Assembly (NCBI GenBank): GCA_900314605.1 | Contig: OMVX01000010.1 | Location: 1-61,502, forward strand | From: an uncultured Methanobrevibacter sp. | GTDB lineage: Archaea > Methanobacteriota > Methanobacteria > Methanobacteriales > Methanobacteriaceae | DNA: 61,502 nt | Direction: 5' to 3' | Notes under the pieces: model-generated | Told to the model about the DNA's origin: nothing | Databases searched by the model: none | What the model saw: the letters and a program-made list of their open reading frames with translations, nothing else | Shown: piece by piece, positions 12,245 to 61,502 of the stretch | Position numbering within the stretch: the stretch's first letter is position 1 | How the letters are laid out: every line of letters starts with the position of its first letter | Translations under genes and position numbers: made by a program

Positions 12245-12877
12245 TTAAATATCAGGATTGTAAGCAACGGTTTTCCACTGTCCATCAAATACAGATGCAA
12301 CAGAGTTTACAGGGTTTTCAAATTCTTTAAATTCACCTTGGTCAAATATATAATGAGCAGCATCTTCACTATTTAATGCTTTAAATTCAAGAAGATGAGG
12401 TTCTTGACATTCATATACAGAAATATAAGCTGCAGAGCCATATTCTAATTTTTCAACCCGTAATTTAGAGTCGGTTACGATTCCAATATAAGCCTCATAT
12501 TTATCTTCAGTAGAATCTGAAGTGACAACCCCTGCAATTCTAGGAGTATTATAATCATCTTTTTCATAATCCATTGTAAGTAAAGAATATGCAAGAGCAT
12601 CTCTAATATTCATACCCACACTAATTTTATCTGCAATAATATCCGTATGAGAACCATTAGATACAATGATTAAATCATCAACAATCCTTATACAATTATA
12701 TGCAATATATGCATTTTCAAAAATATCAGTTTCAAAACCTTCCTTTGGAATAATAGCAGCTTCATTATCAAAAAGTTTCACTTGTCTATTTGGAAAATGT
12801 CTGCTTGAAACTCTATATGCAACAAAAGGTTTACCTTCTGTGTTCATTCCTAATGCTAAAATTCTACCTAAATACAT
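12245..12877 (-). CDS. purO: IMP cyclohydrolase, archaeal type
   Basis: 210 residues. It closes the purine ring (FAICAR to IMP), replacing the cyclohydrolase half of bacterial PurH. The start at 12877 is chosen because GGAGGG lies just upstream and the protein then begins [20 protein letters not shown], as in the family; the longer frame to 12919 reads through low-complexity residues. Other blocks are [13 protein letters not shown] and [16 protein letters not shown]. It is downstream of exbD on the same strand with a 38-bp gap and upstream of cofE. From memory, Methanothermobacter has a similar gene order around purO. Confidence 0.93.
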
Positions 12878-12915
12878 CTTAACCCTCCAAAAAAATAATA
12901 AATTAATCAAGCCCC

Positions 12916-13332
12916 TCATTGATTAGGCTTTCTTACTGCTTGATTTGGCGACATTCCACTTGGAGTTGTAATCTCAATAGACTTATCCTTATTATTAACA
13001 GTAATTTGTCCCTGATCAATTACTCTGGCGTGAATAGCGATAGCATCATCCTGAATTAAATAAGACATATCCTTTCCATTGACAATAACATGTTGTAGAC
13101 CATCTACAGGAATAATATAATATTCAGAATTCCCTGATGTATCTGTTACATTAGGTTTTCCAGTAGCATCAGAAGTCTGATGAGAATTTGCATCAGTAGC
13201 TGTACCTGCAAAACTACTTGTTACAACTATAAATATTAAAATTGTAAATAAAATATCAATAAAAGGTACAAGATTAATATTAACATTATCTTTTTTTAAT
13301 TTTTCCCTTCTTGATTTAATATCTAAACTCAT
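12916..13332 (-). CDS. ExbD/TolR-family biopolymer transport protein
   Basis: 138 residues. The N-terminal cytoplasmic segment is followed by one membrane helix carrying the family aspartate ([18 protein letters not shown]26), the proton-path residue in ExbD, TolR and MotB relatives. A Thr/Ser/Asn-rich linker then leads to an extracytoplasmic domain of about 70 residues. Partner ExbB lies 17 bp upstream on the same strand. The organism type has no outer membrane, so the classic TonB-linked role cannot apply; the energised process is unknown but may act on the wall or surface. Confidence 0.88.
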
Positions 13333-13349
13333 TTTATCACAAAATTTAA

Positions 13350-14189
13350 TTATTGTTTAAGTTTACTTTCGACTATCTCAGAACCTACGTTACACATCTC
13401 TAAAATAATATTGCTTATACTCTTTTCCAACATACTTGGTTTAAATGATATTTGTATATTAGCATTAGGTTCTGATATTTCACGAACATTAACAACACCT
13501 TCACCCTCTTTTAATGAATTAATTACACAAGGTAAATTTTCATTAACATTAATTTTTGCTACAGCATAATTCCAGTTAGTCATTTTAGTAGCAAGTTCAA
13601 TTTTATCCATTTCCCTTTCAATTAATGTTTTAATATAAGTCATAATAGGAAGTAAAACAATTGCTACAAATAACCCGGAAATGGTAGTGATTAACGCAGT
13701 ATAAATACCCTCTGCCATAGCTGAAGGACTAGGATCAACACCTAATGATTTAAATGTAATCCATATACCAATAACAGTACCAATCAAACCTAAAAAGGGG
13801 GCAATTTCAATAATTGTTTTTAAAGTCTCCAATCCTTTAGTCATTTTACCTGTTTCGACAATAAAAATCTGTTCCATACTTTCTTCTACTTCAGTTTTAT
13901 TTTTATAACCAATTTTTAAAGCTTCAGAAATTATTCTTGAAACAGGATTTTGATAAGGACTAATTTCTTTTAAAGCCTCAATAGCACCACCTCTTTCCAT
14001 AGCAACAGACACTATACCCATTATTTCAGTAGCATCAACATTACTAATACGGCGAAGGTATCTTATTTTCTGAATTGAAAGTATGAACCCATATATTCCA
14101 ATAAAAGTAATTATGTAGGTAATAATTCCTCCATTTCTAAAGAAATCTGCTATACCTGATAAAAAACCATTAAATATTTCGAAAATCAT
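13350..14189 (-). CDS. MotA/TolQ/ExbB-family proton channel protein
   Basis: 279 residues. There is one membrane helix near the N-terminus (GIITYIITFIGIYGFILSI), a cytoplasmic region, and two more helices with the family signature (APFLGLIGTVIGIWITF and ISGLFVAIVLLPIMTYI). The GLIGTV stretch and the threonine in the last helix pair line the proton path in ExbB and TolQ. A cytoplasmic tail of about 60 residues follows. Together with exbD it should form a five-ExbB/two-ExbD-type motor. It is the first gene of the exbB-exbD-purO string. Confidence 0.9.
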   Translation of the reverse strand: MIFEIFNGFLSGIADFFRNGGIITYIITFIGIYGFILSIQKIRYLRRISNVDATEIMGIVSVAMERGGAIEALKEISPYQNPVSRIISEALKIGYKNKTEVEESMEQIFIVETGKMTKGLETLKTIIEIAPFLGLIGTVIGIWITFKSLGVDPSPSAMAEGIYTALITTISGLFVAIVLLPIMTYIKTLIEREMDKIELATKMTNWNYAVAKINVNENLPCVINSLKEGEGVVNVREISEPNANIQISFKPSMLEKSISNIILEMCNVGSEIVESKLKQ

Positions 14190-14504
14190 ATTTTTCCTCG
14201 CTTAATGATTAAATAGTAATTATAATAAAATATAGTTTTGAAAAAATAATTCTTCAAAAAATATATATTTTAAGTATAGTTTTATTAATTTAAATATATT
14301 TCTTTATTAAGAAGATTTTTATTAAATTTATTAGATTATTAAAAATAATAAAATTAGATTAAAAAGATTTTTCATAATAGATAAATAAAATAGTTCAAAA
14401 ACCCTACTTGATTTTAATTTGTAAAAAATATTCTAACACATATAATACTCAATTAATTTATAATTATGAGGCAAAAATTAATAAATTTCTAAGGATATAA
14501 AACA
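14190..14504. other. AT-rich spacer with the presumed exbB promoter
   Basis: 315 bases between exbB and rnhB without a reading frame. The upstream face of exbB must hold its promoter. No hairpin or RNA gene was recognised. Confidence 0.5.
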
Positions 14505-15131
14505 CTACTTATTTTTCATCTTATCTACCGTAGCCCAACTACGCCTTACAAAATCAGGAAGTTCCTCATATTGAAAATTAGATAAAAATGCTTTGGTTTT
14601 TGGGTCACTTGGATAACCCGAACCAATACCCCCCATATTAATATATTCTTTATTAATTTTTTCAACAATTAAATCCCTGTTAAATTTGGCAATAATTGAA
14701 GCAGCAGCAACTTGAATATGATTATCATCTGCTTTATGTTCTGCAATAACTTTTATATTATCCCCTACGATTTTTTGAACTTCATTTTGAAAACGTGTAG
14801 GTTTAACATCTACAGCATCAATAATAACTTTTTCCGGTTGTAATTTTTTGATAAGTTGAACCATTCCCCTTTTTTCAATGTCATTAAGATTTACACCTTC
14901 AGCTCTAAGTTTATCAATTTCCTGAGCACTTATAATAACCATATCATGTTCAAACATTTTTGTTAACTTACGTGCAAGAATTAATCTCCTTTTAGGAGTT
15001 ATTTTTTTAGAATCCTTAACCCCCATTCTCTCAAGAATTTTATTTTTACTTTCAGGTATGATAATACCACCAATTACCATAGGACCAAGAACTGGCCCTC
15101 TACCTGCTTCATCAACACCCATAATATCCAT
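14505..15131 (-). CDS. rnhB: Ribonuclease HII
   Basis: 208 residues. It cleaves the RNA strand of RNA/DNA hybrids and single ribonucleotides embedded in DNA. The metal-binding DEAGRGPVLGPMVIGG (D7, E8) is at the N-terminus, IIDAVDV carries the third acidic residue, and DDNHIQVAAASIIAKFNRD the fourth. GSGYPSDPKTKAFL is the conserved C-terminal block. The start at 15131 has AAGGTT six bases upstream. It stands between the ExbBD pair and the MreB-like gene. Confidence 0.95.
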   Translation of the reverse strand: MDIMGVDEAGRGPVLGPMVIGGIIIPESKNKILERMGVKDSKKITPKRRLILARKLTKMFEHDMVIISAQEIDKLRAEGVNLNDIEKRGMVQLIKKLQPEKVIIDAVDVKPTRFQNEVQKIVGDNIKVIAEHKADDNHIQVAAASIIAKFNRDLIVEKINKEYINMGGIGSGYPSDPKTKAFLSNFQYEELPDFVRRSWATVDKMKNK

Positions 15132-15287
15132 ATAATAACCTTAAAAAAATTGTTAAATTTAAAGAATGATATTTAATGATTAAACTTTAAAAAAAATGAG
15201 ACAAATATAAATTAAAATAAATAAAATTTATAAAAAAATTTAACTAAAAATTGAAAAAAAATATATTAAAATAGAAAAAATAAAAAA

Positions 15288-16358
15288 CTATTTCATAGCT
15301 TTAAGACGAACTTCTGGTTCTAAAGCTAATGGTTCTGCAGCAACAATAGCTGTACCTTTAGCCACAACAGTCATAGGATCATCTGAAATTGTAACTGGTA
15401 TTTCAATTTCATCATATATTCTTTCCTTAAGACCACGTAATCTTGAAGATCCTCCAACAGCTACAGTATTTTTATAAACTCCCATAATTAAGTCTGGAGA
15501 CATTCTTTCCAATATAATGTTTAATCCATCAAGAATATTTTGAATTACAAATTCAACTGCATCTGCAACGAGCATAGAATCAATAACAACTTTTTTAGGC
15601 CTATTAGTTTCTAAAGATTTACCTATAACTTCTACAGATAAATTTTCTAAGGTTTGACTACAGTGAACCATACCTACTTCCATTTTTGCATTTTCTGCAT
15701 CATGTATACCAATTGCAACATTATACTTTTCAGCAATTAAATCTACAATTCTATTATCAATATCGTCTCCACCATATCTTACAGTTTCAATATCAGTTAT
15801 TCCACCAAGAGAAATAACTACTAAATCTGTAGATCCTGCACCTAAATCAATAATCATTGTACCATGAGGTTCAGCAATAGGTAATCCTGCACCAATAGCT
15901 GCTGCTAATCCTTCACTAATAACAATAACTTCACTTGCTCCAGCTTTTCTTCCAATTTCTTCAGCAGCATTCTTTTCTACTTCAGAAGAATCTCCAGGAA
16001 TTCCTATAACAATTCTTCCAACAGTTTCATCATCATTAATACCTATTTGAATTGCTCTTATAAGTAAAGATTGTGCTTGTATAATATTTTCAATAACTCC
16101 TTTTTTAAGAGGTCTAACAGCAATAATATCCTCAGGGGTTCTTCCTAACATTCTTTTAGCTTCTTCACCAACAGCTAAAATAGATGAATGGTCATCTTTT
16201 TTAACAGCAACAACAGATGGAATTTGGTATAAATCAAATTTATCTCCAGATGGTTTAGCGATTACGGTATTCAATGTACCTAAATCAATTCCTAAACTAT
16301 TACGAACAACGGATTGTTGAGGTTTCTCGTTATCATCATTATCTCCAAAAATGCTCAT
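15288..16358 (-). CDS. MreB-like actin-family ATPase
   Basis: 356 residues. Actin/Hsp70-fold phosphate loops are clear: LGIDLGTLNTVIAKPSG near the N-terminus (phosphate 1), MIIDLGAGSTDLVVISLGG in the middle (phosphate 2), and VAVGGSSRLRGLKERI near the C-terminus (adenosine motif). Length and the VRPLKKGVIENI block fit the MreB group more than DnaK. MreB-like genes are known in pseudomurein-walled methanogens, where a cell-shape role is assumed from bacteria. Its ATG overlaps the stop of the unknown gene upstream (4-nt overlap), so the two are translationally coupled. DnaK-like alternatives are unlikely at this size. Confidence 0.85.
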   Translation of the reverse strand: MSIFGDNDDNEKPQQSVVRNSLGIDLGTLNTVIAKPSGDKFDLYQIPSVVAVKKDDHSSILAVGEEAKRMLGRTPEDIIAVRPLKKGVIENIIQAQSLLIRAIQIGINDDETVGRIVIGIPGDSSEVEKNAAEEIGRKAGASEVIVISEGLAAAIGAGLPIAEPHGTMIIDLGAGSTDLVVISLGGITDIETVRYGGDDIDNRIVDLIAEKYNVAIGIHDAENAKMEVGMVHCSQTLENLSVEVIGKSLETNRPKKVVIDSMLVADAVEFVIQNILDGLNIILERMSPDLIMGVYKNTVAVGGSSRLRGLKERIYDEIEIPVTISDDPMTVVAKGTAIVAAEPLALEPEVRLKAMK

Positions 16359-17008
16359 TTATAATCCTCCATATCAATATTTTTAAAATCTATTACAAAA
16401 ATTTTATTTGACACAGTAATCTTTTGAACTTTTTCTATATCTTTATCTTCATCAACAGATATAAGAATTGTTTTTAAAACAACATCACTCATTTTAAATA
16501 AAGGAGCAAATGTGTTTTTTAAAAATTTAGGTAATGTAAATCTAGTGTTAATATCTGTTTCAATATAACCAGTAGTCTGATCATCTAATAAAATACCAAA
16601 TTGAACTCGTTCCCTTTCAATTTTAGAAACAGCTTTACGAATAGTATCTTCAGGGCCAACTAAAACCATTAAATTTTGTTTTTCTTTAATATAAAATGGA
16701 GAAATTTGGATTAATGCCCCTCCACCTTCTTTACACTCGTAACAAAATCTTTTAATAATAGAGGAAATACCATACAACATGATAAAATCAAATTTTTTAT
16801 TGACTTTATCCTCTTTTAAAGTTACGTGTTCACGAAATAGTATTTTAACGCTATCTCTTGATGAGATAGCATCATATGCTATATCATCAATTAAAGCATC
16901 ATTTCCAGCCATCACACACCATAACTTATCAGGAGATGAATCACCCGCATCCTTATCATTAGAGACTTTAGCGGCTTGTCTTAAGGCTCGAATACTATCT
17001 TCAATCAT
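16355..17008 (-). CDS. Unknown protein coupled to the MreB-like gene
   Basis: About 217 residues from the ATG at 17008; an in-frame GTG at 17017 is the alternative. No family was recognised. It is soluble, mixed alpha/beta, with a Cys pair at FCYECKEGGG and a repeated pattern of short hydrophobic strands (FDFIMLYGI, NLMVLVGPED, TILISVDED). The last four bases overlap the mreB-like start, indicating a two-gene operon. An accessory or regulator of the filament protein is a reasonable guess, but only from position. Confidence 0.7.
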   Translation of the reverse strand: MIEDSIRALRQAAKVSNDKDAGDSSPDKLWCVMAGNDALIDDIAYDAISSRDSVKILFREHVTLKEDKVNKKFDFIMLYGISSIIKRFCYECKEGGGALIQISPFYIKEKQNLMVLVGPEDTIRKAVSKIERERVQFGILLDDQTTGYIETDINTRFTLPKFLKNTFAPLFKMSDVVLKTILISVDEDKDIEKVQKITVSNKIFVIDFKNIDMEDYK

Positions 17009-17952
17009 AATACACACTCAAATAATTTTAAAGTTACTTTTGACAAATTTACATAAACATTAAAGTATTTACCTAATTTATAAAAAAATTAAAGTATTAA
17101 AATACAAAGTCTTCAATAGACTATTATATAATTATAATTGTATAATATTATATATATTTATTCATAATTAATAATATATTTTAAAAAATATTATAATTTG
17201 GCTCTTTCAAAAACTTGTGTGATAAATTTTATTTCCATTTTTTTACCTTAGAAAAAATTTGGTTTAACAAGTTCAAACATATACATAGAGCTTTTATTTT
17301 TATATAAAATAAATAATATATGAGTACAACTTATATATTAAGTTATCAGGTTTTAAATTAACAATAGAGAATAATTGACAAAAAATTTTCGTTATTTGTA
17401 AATAATCAAAATTCAAATCACACAAGTTTTTGAAAGTGGCTATAATTTTCCATGATTAATCAATAAAGTATCAAATAATAATTAAAATGATATGGTTAAG
17501 TAATTTATGTTTAATTTAACTAATTTTCAAAAAAATAATTTGAAATAAACTATATTTGAAAAATATATAATAATATATTTCTCTATTTGTAATTTAAAAA
17601 TTTAAAATCAAAGAAAAAAATAATAAAAATTATTCTAAATATTATAAACCAATCTAAATTTTTTAGTGATAAAATGAATTTTTAAGAAATCATCTTTTTT
17701 ATGAATTCAGATATATAAAAGATATTATTTAAGTTTAAAAGTATATAAACTAAAATATGAAAAAGCAAATTAATAAATGAAAATTAAAATAAAGAAATTG
17801 TTTAAAAAATAAATACAATTTTAAATTAAAAATTATTTAAAAATATTAATAAATATCATTTAAGAGAAATATAATTTTAAATATCAAATATTTTAATTTG
17901 TAAGTAGTAAAAATAATATAATATTTAAAAAGACATTTAAGAAGGAGTCAAT
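17009..17952. other. Long AT-rich divergent spacer holding a MITE
   Basis: About 940 bases between two divergently transcribed operons. The only structure recognised is the inverted-repeat element at 17200-17440. The remainder (17441-17952) has no reading frame and should hold the promoter for the archaetidylserine synthase gene; AAGAAGGAGTC at its end is that gene's ribosome-binding site. Confidence 0.6.
17200..17440. mobile_element. MITE family A, copy 1 (241 bp, 8-bp target duplication)
   Basis: The ends are 24-bp inverted repeats: GGCTCTTTCAAAAACTTGTG on the left, and the complement of GCCACTTTCAAAAACTTGTG on the right, both continuing TGAT. The flanks carry a perfect 8-bp duplication TATAATTT (17192-17199 and 17441-17448). 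There is no transposase frame. Read on the minus strand, its start matches the left end of the insertion sequence at 61246, including a region like the transposase start, so it looks like an internal-deletion derivative inserted in this orientation. Its other end matches the right end of copy 2. Confidence 0.9.
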
Positions 17953-18639
17953 ATGAAAGAACAGAAAACAAACATAGGACATTTCATAGGTATACCTGAT
18001 GTAATTTCACTATTAAATTTAACATCAGGTTTTTTATCCATAATATTTGCTATAAATAATAACCTGAAAGTAGCAGCATTACTTATAATTTTGGCTATGA
18101 TTTTTGACTCAATTGATGGATGGACAGCGAGAAAAGTTGGTAAAAATGATCAATATGGTTTTGGAAAGAATATTGATTCCTTATCTGATGCAGTTTCATT
18201 TGGTACAGCTCCTGCAATTTTATTTTATATGATAGGTAAAACATATAATGCTAATTTAGAAATTCCGATACTATTAACAAGTTTACTTATGCTAATATGT
18301 GGAATATTAAGATTAACTCGTTATAATGTAATATGTGATTTAATCGATTATAAAGGATTTATTGGATTTCCTATTCCAGGGATTGGATTTATATTATCTA
18401 CATTCTATTTAACTGGCCTTTATAATATTTATCTTAGTATGATTATAATGATAATAGTATCATTACTTATGATAAGTAATATAAAATATCCTAAATTTTC
18501 AAATATGAAAGTATTAGGTTTTGGACTGTTAATGATCGTATTAATGATAATAAACTGGCCCGTATATAATAATATTAGTATACCTGCAGTTATTCTTCTT
18601 TTAATTACACTATACTATTTAATAAGGAATATATTCTAA
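17953..18639 (+). CDS. Archaetidylserine synthase (CDP-alcohol phosphatidyltransferase family)
   Basis: 228 residues, an integral membrane enzyme with about six to seven helices. The CDP-alcohol phosphotransferase motif is complete: D52..D55-G56..A59-R60 ... G71...D75...D79 (within FDSIDGWTARKVG and GKNIDSLSD). It most resembles the PssA/archaetidylserine branch, which replaces CMP of CDP-archaeol with L-serine, and it shares the wide spacing and hydrophobic tail of those enzymes. A good ribosome-binding site (AAGGAG) is 5-6 bases upstream. A DUF515-like membrane protein follows 96 bp later. The exact head group is inferred. Confidence 0.85.
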   Translation: MKEQKTNIGHFIGIPDVISLLNLTSGFLSIIFAINNNLKVAALLIILAMIFDSIDGWTARKVGKNDQYGFGKNIDSLSDAVSFGTAPAILFYMIGKTYNANLEIPILLTSLLMLICGILRLTRYNVICDLIDYKGFIGFPIPGIGFILSTFYLTGLYNIYLSMIIMIIVSLLMISNIKYPKFSNMKVLGFGLLMIVLMIINWPVYNNISIPAVILLLITLYYLIRNIF

Positions 18640-18735
18640 TTCTAACTCTTCAAGTAATTATAAAAATTGTGAAATCTAATTACATGACTACTTTTACCAA
18701 CTTATTGTTGTTTTAAAAATAGGGTTTGGTAAAAG

Positions 18736-20376
18736 ATGAATGATAAGAGAAAACCTGCAAGAACATTAAAACCTATTAATTATAAAGAAAAAGAAAATTC
18801 TAAAGATAAATTTAAATTAAAATCTATAATTAAAAGATTAAGTAATTTTTTTGAAATTGCAGAAGATAATAGAAATAAAGATGAAAATAAAAATTTAAAA
18901 CAAAGCTATAAAGAGTATAATGATTTTAAATATGAAAATTTCATTAAAGATAAATATCCTAGTAATGGTACCCAACTATCTAAACCATCTGATAATAAAA
19001 GATTTTATGAAAAAGAAATCGACTATAATAAAACAAAAACATCACATGAAAAAGATTTAATCTATTCTAAAATAAATAAAGTTAGTAATATTAAAAACCA
19101 GCAAAATAATGATTTAATTAATAAAGAAAAATTAAATGAATTAAGCTACCCTCGATTAAAAAAAGAAAAAAGAAATCTTAAAAATAAATCTCCTCTCAAA
19201 TCAATTCAATCTAAAATTGAAGAATATGAGAAAACCGGACATTTTGGTTTTAATTTAACAAAATATGAAAAAAATAAAATGGGAATTATAATATTCTTTA
19301 TACTTTTTATCATCATAATCGGAGGGTCATACTATTTTTTTATATATGAACCTAATTTAAAGGAATTAAATAAAGGAAAAATTACTAAACTAGATGAAGT
19401 AAACTTATTATTTAAAGGACCTCTAACAAGTTCCCAAGAAGCAATTATTTTAGAAGATAAAATTAATAAATGTAATAGCAAAGTGGAACTAGAGGAAATA
19501 GATGTTTTAAGACCTGCAACTAATCATTGGAAAGATTATCATTTGAAAAAAATCAATGATAGCTGTGATAGTGGAGGTCGTGTAATGATAAGCTCTACTA
19601 TAGCAAATAAAAAAAATATTATAAGTGTAGATGAGGCTAAAAGAGTTGTTTTAGATAATGACGGATATGTTCTATCAAATATTGAGTTTGAAAAACCAAA
19701 TACTGTAGCAGTACCTATTCAAGTTTCTAGACTTCAAGCATGTAATGGACTTATTAAAACTGGTAGCAAAATTGACATATATTGTGTAAATAACACAGAA
19801 CTCCAAACTAATGAAAATACAAATAATATTACAAATAACTCTATAAATTATAATAATACTCTTCAAACTAATAATACAAATCAAAACCCCTATATTTTCA
19901 ATAATGAGATTAGTAGTAATCTAACTAATGAATCTTCAATAAGAGGATGTACTGTACTTGCAATAATAAGATCTAAAGAAAGTGGAACAATAAATACTGA
20001 AATAAGTCAAAGTAAATCATTAAATAATGATAAAAGAAATAAATCATATGAAAATGATTATACCTACAGTAACGATGTTTTAGAAGATTTAAAAACATAT
20101 GCTATAGAGGATTATAATGGAGATTTAACTGAAGAATCATTAAATGAATATGGAATAAAACTATCTGAATATGAAAGAGAATCTAATCTGGGAGATTTAA
20201 ATTGTGAATATTTAATATTAATTGAAATGCCAAGAGAAGATGTGCAATATACATTAAACAATATGAATAATATAATCCTAACTATACCAACCCAAGAGGG
20301 ACCTGACTGGATGATTAAAGAAATAAAAGAAAATAATAATGTTAAAAACAATACCGAAAAATTTAAAATTTTATAA
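18736..20376 (+). CDS. Membrane-anchored DUF515-like protein with CpaB/RcpC-like region
   Basis: 546 residues. A long Lys/Asn-rich cytoplasmic N-terminus (1-181) leads to one membrane helix (about 182-205, GIIIFFILFIIIIGGSYYFF), so the remaining 340 residues are outside. The outer part has VAVPIQVSRLQACNGLIKTGSKIDIYC, which resembles the SAF/CpaB-RcpC element of pilus assembly proteins. An Asn/Thr-rich low-complexity insert follows (about 355-400), then an alpha/beta domain ending TIPTQEGPDWMIKEI. I believe it is the methanogen DUF515 family. Function is unknown; the CpaB likeness points to secretion or surface assembly. It probably shares a transcript with the archaetidylserine synthase gene. 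Confidence 0.7.
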   Translation: MNDKRKPARTLKPINYKEKENSKDKFKLKSIIKRLSNFFEIAEDNRNKDENKNLKQSYKEYNDFKYENFIKDKYPSNGTQLSKPSDNKRFYEKEIDYNKTKTSHEKDLIYSKINKVSNIKNQQNNDLINKEKLNELSYPRLKKEKRNLKNKSPLKSIQSKIEEYEKTGHFGFNLTKYEKNKMGIIIFFILFIIIIGGSYYFFIYEPNLKELNKGKITKLDEVNLLFKGPLTSSQEAIILEDKINKCNSKVELEEIDVLRPATNHWKDYHLKKINDSCDSGGRVMISSTIANKKNIISVDEAKRVVLDNDGYVLSNIEFEKPNTVAVPIQVSRLQACNGLIKTGSKIDIYCVNNTELQTNENTNNITNNSINYNNTLQTNNTNQNPYIFNNEISSNLTNESSIRGCTVLAIIRSKESGTINTEISQSKSLNNDKRNKSYENDYTYSNDVLEDLKTYAIEDYNGDLTEESLNEYGIKLSEYERESNLGDLNCEYLILIEMPREDVQYTLNNMNNIILTIPTQEGPDWMIKEIKENNNVKNNTEKFKIL

Positions 20377-20473
20377 AAGTATATTAGAACATATAAATTG
20401 TTTTAATATCTTTAATAAAATTTATAAATCTAAAAATTTTATTAAAATATAATAAAAATAAAAAATAACTAAT

Positions 20474-20575
20474 TAATATTTTAAAAAAAAATATTTGATA
20501 AAACTTAATAATATTTTAAAAAAAATATTTGATAAAACTTAATAATATTTTAAAAAAAAATATTTGATAAAACTT
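20474..20575 (+). repeat. Three tandem copies of a 34-35-bp AT-only unit upstream of mptD
   Basis: Copies start at 20474, 20509 and 20543. Each contains AATATTTT, a run of A, AAAATATT and then GATAAAACTTAA, so each can fold into a short hairpin and carries TATA-like DNA. Copies differ only in A-run length. The block ends about 50 bases before the mptD start. Confidence 0.85.
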
Positions 20576-42591: not shown

Positions 42592-42774
42592 GGCACTTTC
42601 AAAAACTTATGTAATTTTAATTTTTACAAGTTACACAACCCAAAAATTATCCATCGATTTATGATTTATTTTTAATTTAAAAATTTATAACTTAATATAT
42701 TAAGTTGAAATTCTTAATTTTTCTAAGGTAAAAAAATGGAAATAAAAGTTATCACACAAGTTTTTGAAAGTGCC
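42592..42774. mobile_element. MITE family A, copy 2 (183 bp, 8-bp target duplication)
   Basis: It begins GGCACTTTCAAAAACTTATG and ends with the complement of GGCACTTTCAAAAACTTGTG. A perfect 8-bp duplication AAATAATT flanks it (42584-42591 and 42775-42782). Inside is a palindrome AACTTAATATATTAAGTT like one in the insertion sequence at 61246. The last 55 bases are nearly identical to the equivalent end of copy 1. There is no reading frame of its own. It sits between the divergent ends of mmp14 (start) and mtrH (stop). Confidence 0.92.
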
Positions 42775-61245: not shown

Positions 61246-61502
61246 GGCACTTTCAAAAACTTGTGTGATTTGAATTTTCACATTTTATTGTGACACGAAA
61301 TTTTAACGTGTAAATTTTTCTTTATTTTTAATTTGAAAATAGTAAACTTAATATATTAAGTGGAGCTTATATATTAATATGTTTAAAACAAAAATAAAAG
61401 CTTCATATCAATGTATGGACTTAAAAGAATATAAACTTTTCGATTTTGTACCTGCGTTTTCTGAATTCCGTCAATTTGATGATCTTTCACGTTTTGGTTT
61501 TG
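61246..61502 (+). mobile_element. Left end of an insertion sequence, parent of MITE family A (runs off the window)
   Basis: It begins GGCACTTTCAAAAACTTGTG, the terminal repeat of both family A MITEs, and contains the palindrome ACTTAATATATTAAGT. The transposase frame starts at 61379. The right end is outside the window, so the target duplication (would be TAAAAATA, 61238-61245) cannot be tested. The 8-bp duplications of the MITEs agree with ISM1 of Methanobrevibacter smithii, reported to make 8-bp duplications, but kinship is not shown here. Confidence 0.85.
61379..61502 (+). CDS. Transposase, N-terminal fragment (cut by the window edge)
   Basis: 41 residues visible: MFKTKIKASYQCMDLKEYKL, then FDFVPAFSEFRQFDDLSRFGF. 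The transposase call rests on its position inside the terminal repeat of an insertion sequence, 133 bases from the tip. There is GGAG 12 bases upstream. The catalytic domain is not in view, so the family is undecided. Confidence 0.7.
   Translation, partial: MFKTKIKASYQCMDLKEYKLFDFVPAFSEFRQFDDLSRFGF

Follow-up and report, generated by a model that had tools for sequence, protein, structure and literature searches.

A conserved envelope-gene neighbourhood of separable modules, including an ExbB-ExbD pair and an MreB pair, in pseudomurein archaea

What is known of ExbBD-type motors comes almost entirely from systems in which their force is taken up by an outer membrane or a flagellum. What might such a pair do in an archaeon with a single membrane beneath a pseudomurein wall, only a few genes away from an MreB-like actin? 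The question is raised by a stretch of 61,502 nucleotides (nt) from an uncultured Methanobrevibacter sp. (assembly GCA_900314605.1, contig OMVX01000010.1; the whole stretch is called the window here), which belongs to a Methanobacteriaceae genome, G000, of 2.37 Mb and 99% completeness. A preliminary description of the window listed ExbD, ExbB, MreB, archaetidylserine synthase and DUF515/CpaB-like genes as a possible envelope block, perhaps a single proton-driven system acting on the wall or the surface. Profile matches place all of these genes where it had put them (Table 1), and the list lacked two genes, one for RNase HII and one for a soluble protein that we call o220. The locus is probably best understood as three separable modules: an ExbBD pair that is likely to be a proton motor, an o220-MreB pair with a presumed role in rod shape, and a lipid and surface module.

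That the neighbourhood is a real and conserved one in pseudomurein archaea, as had been supposed, is clear from some 55 loci that surround ExbB or MreB, taken from every genus of the phylum, in which genes were called with profiles made from the window proteins. In full, one arm reads GTP cyclohydrolase III, CofD, CofE, PurO, ExbD, ExbB, RNase HII, MreB and o220; the divergent arm carries (decarboxylase), archaetidylserine synthase, DUF515, (unknown), (sortase) and dihydroneopterin aldolase. The same order is found from Methanothermobacter to Methanobrevibacter, which is far beyond what chance can account for, and median gaps are 16 nt between ExbB and ExbD, 2 nt between o220 and MreB, and 161 nt between RNase HII and ExbB. 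We take genomes G008, G020, G025, G017, G150 and G154 of this set to be M. smithii, Methanosphaera stadtmanae, M. ruminantium, M. thermautotrophicus, Methanothermus fervidus and Methanopyrus kandleri, respectively; in the complete genome G017, exbB is at C1:934613-935449. Because purely metabolic genes share the synteny (RNase HII, PurO, CofE, CofD and GTP cyclohydrolase III are the housekeeping genes within it), adjacency alone is weak evidence of joint function. The arrangement also comes apart along particular lines: in one genus (g5) the o220-MreB pair has been relocated as a unit beyond the lipid genes and RNase HII-ExbBD stays behind, in the M. ruminantium group (g4) ExbB-ExbD-PurO alone is inverted as one block, and in Methanosphaera RNase HII, ExbBD, the lipid synthase and DUF515 are in place and exactly o220 and MreB are gone.

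Across the phylum, 152 genomes were scored for the presence of these genes, and 91 of them form a good subset with completeness of at least 90% and contamination of at most 5%. MreB was found in 119 of the 152, o220 in 118, and ExbB of the 279-amino-acid (aa) type found in the window (hereafter ExbB-279) in 131. MreB and o220 are concordant in 91 of 91 good genomes (76 with both, 15 with neither), whereas the presence of ExbB is independent of that of MreB (71 both, 5 MreB only, 14 ExbB only, 1 neither; Fisher p = 1). The tests take no account of phylogeny, and a single event in Methanosphaera explains most of the MreB losses, so the strength of the evidence lies in the direction of loss and in the independent rearrangements. 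Some lone absences, such as those in G002 and G050, coincide with contig ends and could reflect gaps in the assembly. Both o220 and MreB are absent from 20 of 20 Methanosphaera genomes, which are cocci and retain ExbBD. All six genomes of genus g13 are without ExbB-279, and RNase HII-MreB-o220 is kept in the three g13 loci examined (L052, L071 and L072). Together, the presence/absence pattern and the rearrangements lead us to reject the idea that ExbBD, MreB, the lipid synthase and DUF515 act as one block. What is conserved is a neighbourhood of separable modules, with the motor and the shape pair gained and lost independently.

How far does this neighbourhood follow pseudomurein? Mur-ligase-domain genes are only a rough marker of the wall, because the family also matches in M. 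jannaschii and H. volcanii; well-assembled genomes mostly have 4-8 of them, with or without ExbB or MreB (4-6 in g13, 6 in Methanothermus, 5-7 in Methanosphaera), and every genome found with ExbB-279 has some. The MotA/TolQ/ExbB family as a whole, as distinct from ExbB-279, matches in Methanosarcina acetivorans. Methanothermus has o220-MreB-RNase HII but not ExbB-279, and only two weak ExbB paralogues lie elsewhere. Five Methanopyrus genomes, reached through topoisomerase V, all carry MreB. In the three loci examined an o220 homologue lies directly upstream of it and archaetidylserine synthase-DUF515 faces away, with a decarboxylase-like gene before the synthase in the two loci read in detail. 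Each Methanopyrus genome has one ExbB, which is of another type (202-206 aa where the start is intact) and adjoins a DUF2162 predicted transporter; in the complete genome it is about 100 kb from MreB and unlinked to it. The o220-MreB/lipid/DUF515 arrangement therefore dates far back among pseudomurein archaea, whereas ExbBD became part of it only in Methanobacteriales. Since Methanothermus, Methanopyrus and g13 bear walls and lack ExbB-279, ExbBD is not needed for pseudomurein; nor is it tied to MreB, because Methanosphaera has ExbBD without MreB and Methanothermus and g13 show the reverse. These patterns make it very unlikely that the locus encodes one integrated elongation machine, in which ExbBD would supply proton energy for MreB-guided pseudomurein synthesis with DUF515 and the lipids as envelope parts. 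Such a machine would fit a neighbourhood kept over the whole order and the Mur-ligase genes that accompany ExbB-279, but it is hard to square with the statistical independence of ExbB and MreB, with a motor without MreB in Methanosphaera, with MreB and Mur ligases without the motor in Methanothermus and g13, and with the unlinked, different ExbB of Methanopyrus.

If the motor is not the companion of MreB, what is? The co-occurrence observed here points to o220 as its real partner gene; in the window o220 lies directly upstream of mreB and overlaps its start. By hydropathy o220 is soluble, and its predicted structure is a pair of ferredoxin/ACT-like domains preceded by a short helix that is itself uncertain. 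Pfam and PDB searches gave no convincing match to it; Foldseek matched it to tandem-ACT proteins at E about 1e-5, and because the whole-length TM-scores are low these matches support the type of domain and not detailed homology. MreB itself has the actin phosphate motifs (GIDLGTLNT and IDLGAGSTDL). The joint loss of o220 and MreB in cocci suggests a role in shape, and we propose that MreB filaments work with o220 as a dedicated cytosolic cofactor, the two forming a rod-shape pair. At one locus (L078, genome G147) mreB is duplicated in tandem, with adjacent copies of 379 and 355 aa, and o220 lies several genes upstream.

The remaining question is what ExbBD does. ExbB has three hydrophobic transmembrane (TM) segments by hydropathy (peaks at residues 21-39, 126-144 and 165-183), and Thr138 in TM2 and Thr169 in TM3 are invariant and align with those of TolQ, which is its closest solved structure; ExbB and MotA are also among its PDB relatives. 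Beyond the membrane part its C terminus is extended by a further domain of about 75 aa, conserved over the order with invariant NW, KPsML and ESkLxQ motifs, for which Pfam gave no match and the PDB no convincing one. Judged by eye, its predicted pattern would be beta-alpha-beta-beta-alpha-beta, possibly ferredoxin-like. The reading of o220 is also ferredoxin-like, and a profile comparison of the two for a shared fold or homology gave nothing. ExbD has one TM helix (about residues 21-42) with an invariant Asp26 that aligns with ExbD of solved structures. Its alignment with known ExbD does not go beyond the membrane helix and the first part of the linker, and PF02472 covers only profile positions 2-34 of 128. 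According to AlphaFold, a flexible or disordered linker leads to a small, compact, all-beta extracytoplasmic domain (71-122), with a pLDDT of about 90 or more over residues 71-138. This domain had no PDB match at E below 0.001 and none to ExbD or TolR among the matches listed, and the model indicates that ExbD is without the mixed alpha/beta outer domain of the TolR/ExbD type. The suspicion that the system had not been described is borne out to this extent, that the predicted output domain differs from that of known ExbD and TolR.

By analogy with the family, ExbB and ExbD most likely form a TolQ/ExbB-type motor driven by protons, with a presumed stoichiometry of 5:2. Protons would pass ExbD Asp26 and the ExbB threonines, the ring of ExbB subunits would turn about the two ExbD chains, and the beta-domain of ExbD outside the membrane would pass the motion to a partner between the membrane and pseudomurein. 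On the cytoplasmic side, the additional domain at the ExbB C terminus may regulate the motor. It is this family membership that suggests the proton flow, the ring rotation and the movement of the beta-domain. The preliminary description had noted that ExbB and ExbD need an extracytoplasmic partner in a cell without a TonB system. No TonB/Tol partner is evident beside ExbBD and the motor residues are kept, and the puzzle of such a pair in a cell that lacks an outer membrane is a real one; among the neighbours identified there is no TonB/TolA transducer or outer-membrane partner, for which no genome-wide search was made. A more specific picture, of a single-membrane archaeal proton motor whose new all-beta output domain works under the pseudomurein wall and is gated by the ExbB C-terminal domain, we offer as a tentative proposal that may well prove wrong. 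Several considerations weigh against the modular reading as a whole: adjacency kept for so long over an order could still mean a loose functional link, paralogous ExbB proteins of about 215 aa with DUF2162 might replace ExbB-279 in some of the lineages that lack it, and the AlphaFold model of the ExbD outer domain was built from only 22 sequences.

On what would such a motor act? It is possible, though doubtful, that ExbBD acts on the pseudomurein wall or on wall-bound proteins in the manner of TolQR/MotB-type motors, independently of MreB, and serves wall remodelling or separation at division in rods and cocci alike. ExbB-279 is kept in both cell shapes of the wall-bearing lineages (131 of 152 genomes), the outer domain of ExbD is small and near the membrane, and the window genome has a single protein of the MotA/ExbB family. 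But the absence of ExbB-279 from wall-bearing Methanothermus, Methanopyrus and g13 speaks against this role, as does ExbD itself, in which neither the family search nor structure comparison recognised a wall-binding domain. An uptake or export system energised through a membrane partner, as in iron or cobalt uptake, seems to us improbable. It would agree with the family annotation and with a metapangenome study that placed Methanobacterium exbB in iron uptake (PMC10350532), an assignment made by homology only, which we did not adopt. No transporter or TonB gene is adjacent to ExbBD, and its scores are all far below the NCBIfam cut-offs for ExbB, ExbD, TolQ and TolR equivalogs (for tolQ, 54.8 against 221). 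As is well established, such archaea lack an outer-membrane receptor. Where a predicted transporter does adjoin ExbB, it adjoins the shorter paralogues and not ExbB-279: a second ExbB type of 202-214 aa lies beside DUF2162 in L079, L087, L093 and L095, and in the last three also with an ExbD-like protein of 114-128 aa. In L079 and L087 the second-type ExbB is near beta-helix surface proteins. One might finally suppose that ExbBD is an ion channel and no motor, or that it has decayed and survives by chance within a housekeeping operon (ExbBD-PurO-CofE-CofD), since only the TM part of ExbD is common to known ExbD and the pair heads purine and F420 genes. The strict conservation of the motor residues and of the ExbB C-terminal domain over the whole order leaves little room for this. 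ExbBD is more plausibly an unusual variant of the TolQ/ExbB-type motor that stands on its own.

Genes of the divergent arm would form the third module, (decarboxylase)-archaetidylserine synthase-DUF515-(sortase), which probably makes serine and ethanolamine lipids and handles surface proteins. DUF515 has a long, charged, low-complexity cytoplasmic tail, one TM segment and a CpaB/RcpC-like outer part; it is 546 aa long in the window and 390 aa in M. smithii, and a literature search found no paper on DUF515 in archaea. A gene of the phosphatidylserine-decarboxylase type precedes the synthase in Methanothermobacter and, by sequence, in Methanopyrus (L077 12254-12925, L103 6010-6663), and does not in the window or in M. 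smithii. Most relatives have a sortase between DUF515 and dihydroneopterin aldolase. It is absent at 20376-20564 of the window, was found nowhere else in G000, is present in three sister species, and was found in no Methanosphaera genome. The gap between o220 and the synthase holds an element resembling a miniature inverted-repeat transposable element, with perfect 20-nt inverted ends (CTTTCAAAAACTTGTGTGAT), at 17204-17436; a second copy lies at 42596-42770 and a single end at 61250-61269, and the end has 5 matches in the window against 0.03 expected. A sigma-70 promoter scan gave hits at chance level only; archaea are not known to use such promoters.

Table 1. Features of the neighbourhood in the window, with the evidence for each.
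Feature	Position	Strand	Evidence or remark
PurO (IMP cyclohydrolase)	12245..12919	-	overlaps exbD end
ExbD-like protein, 138 aa	12916..13332	-	PF02472, 29.3 bits against cut-off 25.4, N-terminal part only
ExbB/TolQ-type putative proton-channel subunit, 279 aa	13350..14189	-	PF01618, 102.7 bits against cut-off 22.9
ExbB C-terminal cytoplasmic domain, about residues 199-279	13350..13595	-	putative fold pattern, read by eye
RNase HII, housekeeping gene between MreB and ExbB	14505..15131	-	TIGR00729, 226 bits
MreB-like actin, 356 aa	15288..16358	-	PF06723, 322.7 bits, full length
o220, 220 aa, soluble, paired with MreB	16355..17017	-	no Pfam family
Archaetidylserine synthase	17953..18639	+	NF038087, 289 bits against cut-off 240
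DUF515 protein	18736..20376	+	PF04415, 46 bits; weak RcpC/CpaB stretch

Parts of this locus have close counterparts in known systems. With TolQ-TolR and ExbB-ExbD it shares adjacent genes, a three-TM A subunit with threonines in TM2 and TM3, and a one-TM B subunit with an aspartate in its helix, but it differs in the extra C-terminal domain of ExbB, the predicted all-beta outer domain of ExbD, and in having no TonB, TolA or Pal among the neighbours identified and no outer membrane. The genomes sampled in a recent survey of the family were bacterial (PMC12505986). A strictly conserved ExbBD in single-membrane, pseudomurein-walled archaea allows a clean test of what such a motor does where neither an outer membrane nor a flagellum is present. 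Paralogues of about 215 aa, which accompany DUF2162 in methanogens and in Methanopyrus, belong to the same channel family as ExbB-279 but have no C-terminal domain, another small partner and DUF2162 as neighbour, and they score only about 110-170 bits with the ExbB-279 profile, against about 430-480.

The o220-MreB/lipid/DUF515 arrangement corresponds to the published cluster C of pseudomurein archaea, which comprises Flp pilus RcpC/CpaB, sortase E, a 'coiled coil protein' and MreB, and was judged unrelated to wall synthesis in a study that does not mention ExbBD (mSystems 2025, PMC11915815). Both have o220-MreB and DUF515 (with sortase in relatives) in the same order and divergent layout, and in the window and in Methanopyrus MreB lies directly downstream of its partner gene and divergent from the CpaB-like gene. 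They differ in that the window genome has lost the sortase, and in that o220 is predicted to consist of two ferredoxin/ACT-like domains and not mainly of coiled coil; going by the model, the published label could fit only its N-terminal helix. Like bacterial MreB, the archaeal protein matches PF06723 over its full length, yet it falls below the curated bacterial cut-offs (263.9 against 365.75 for TIGR00904, 279.4 against 293 for a second model) and is paired with o220 and not with mreC/mreD. The role of archaeal MreB has been described as unexamined (PMC7613921), and o220, which co-occurs perfectly with MreB and was lost together with it in the coccoid Methanosphaera, is now a specific candidate for its partner.

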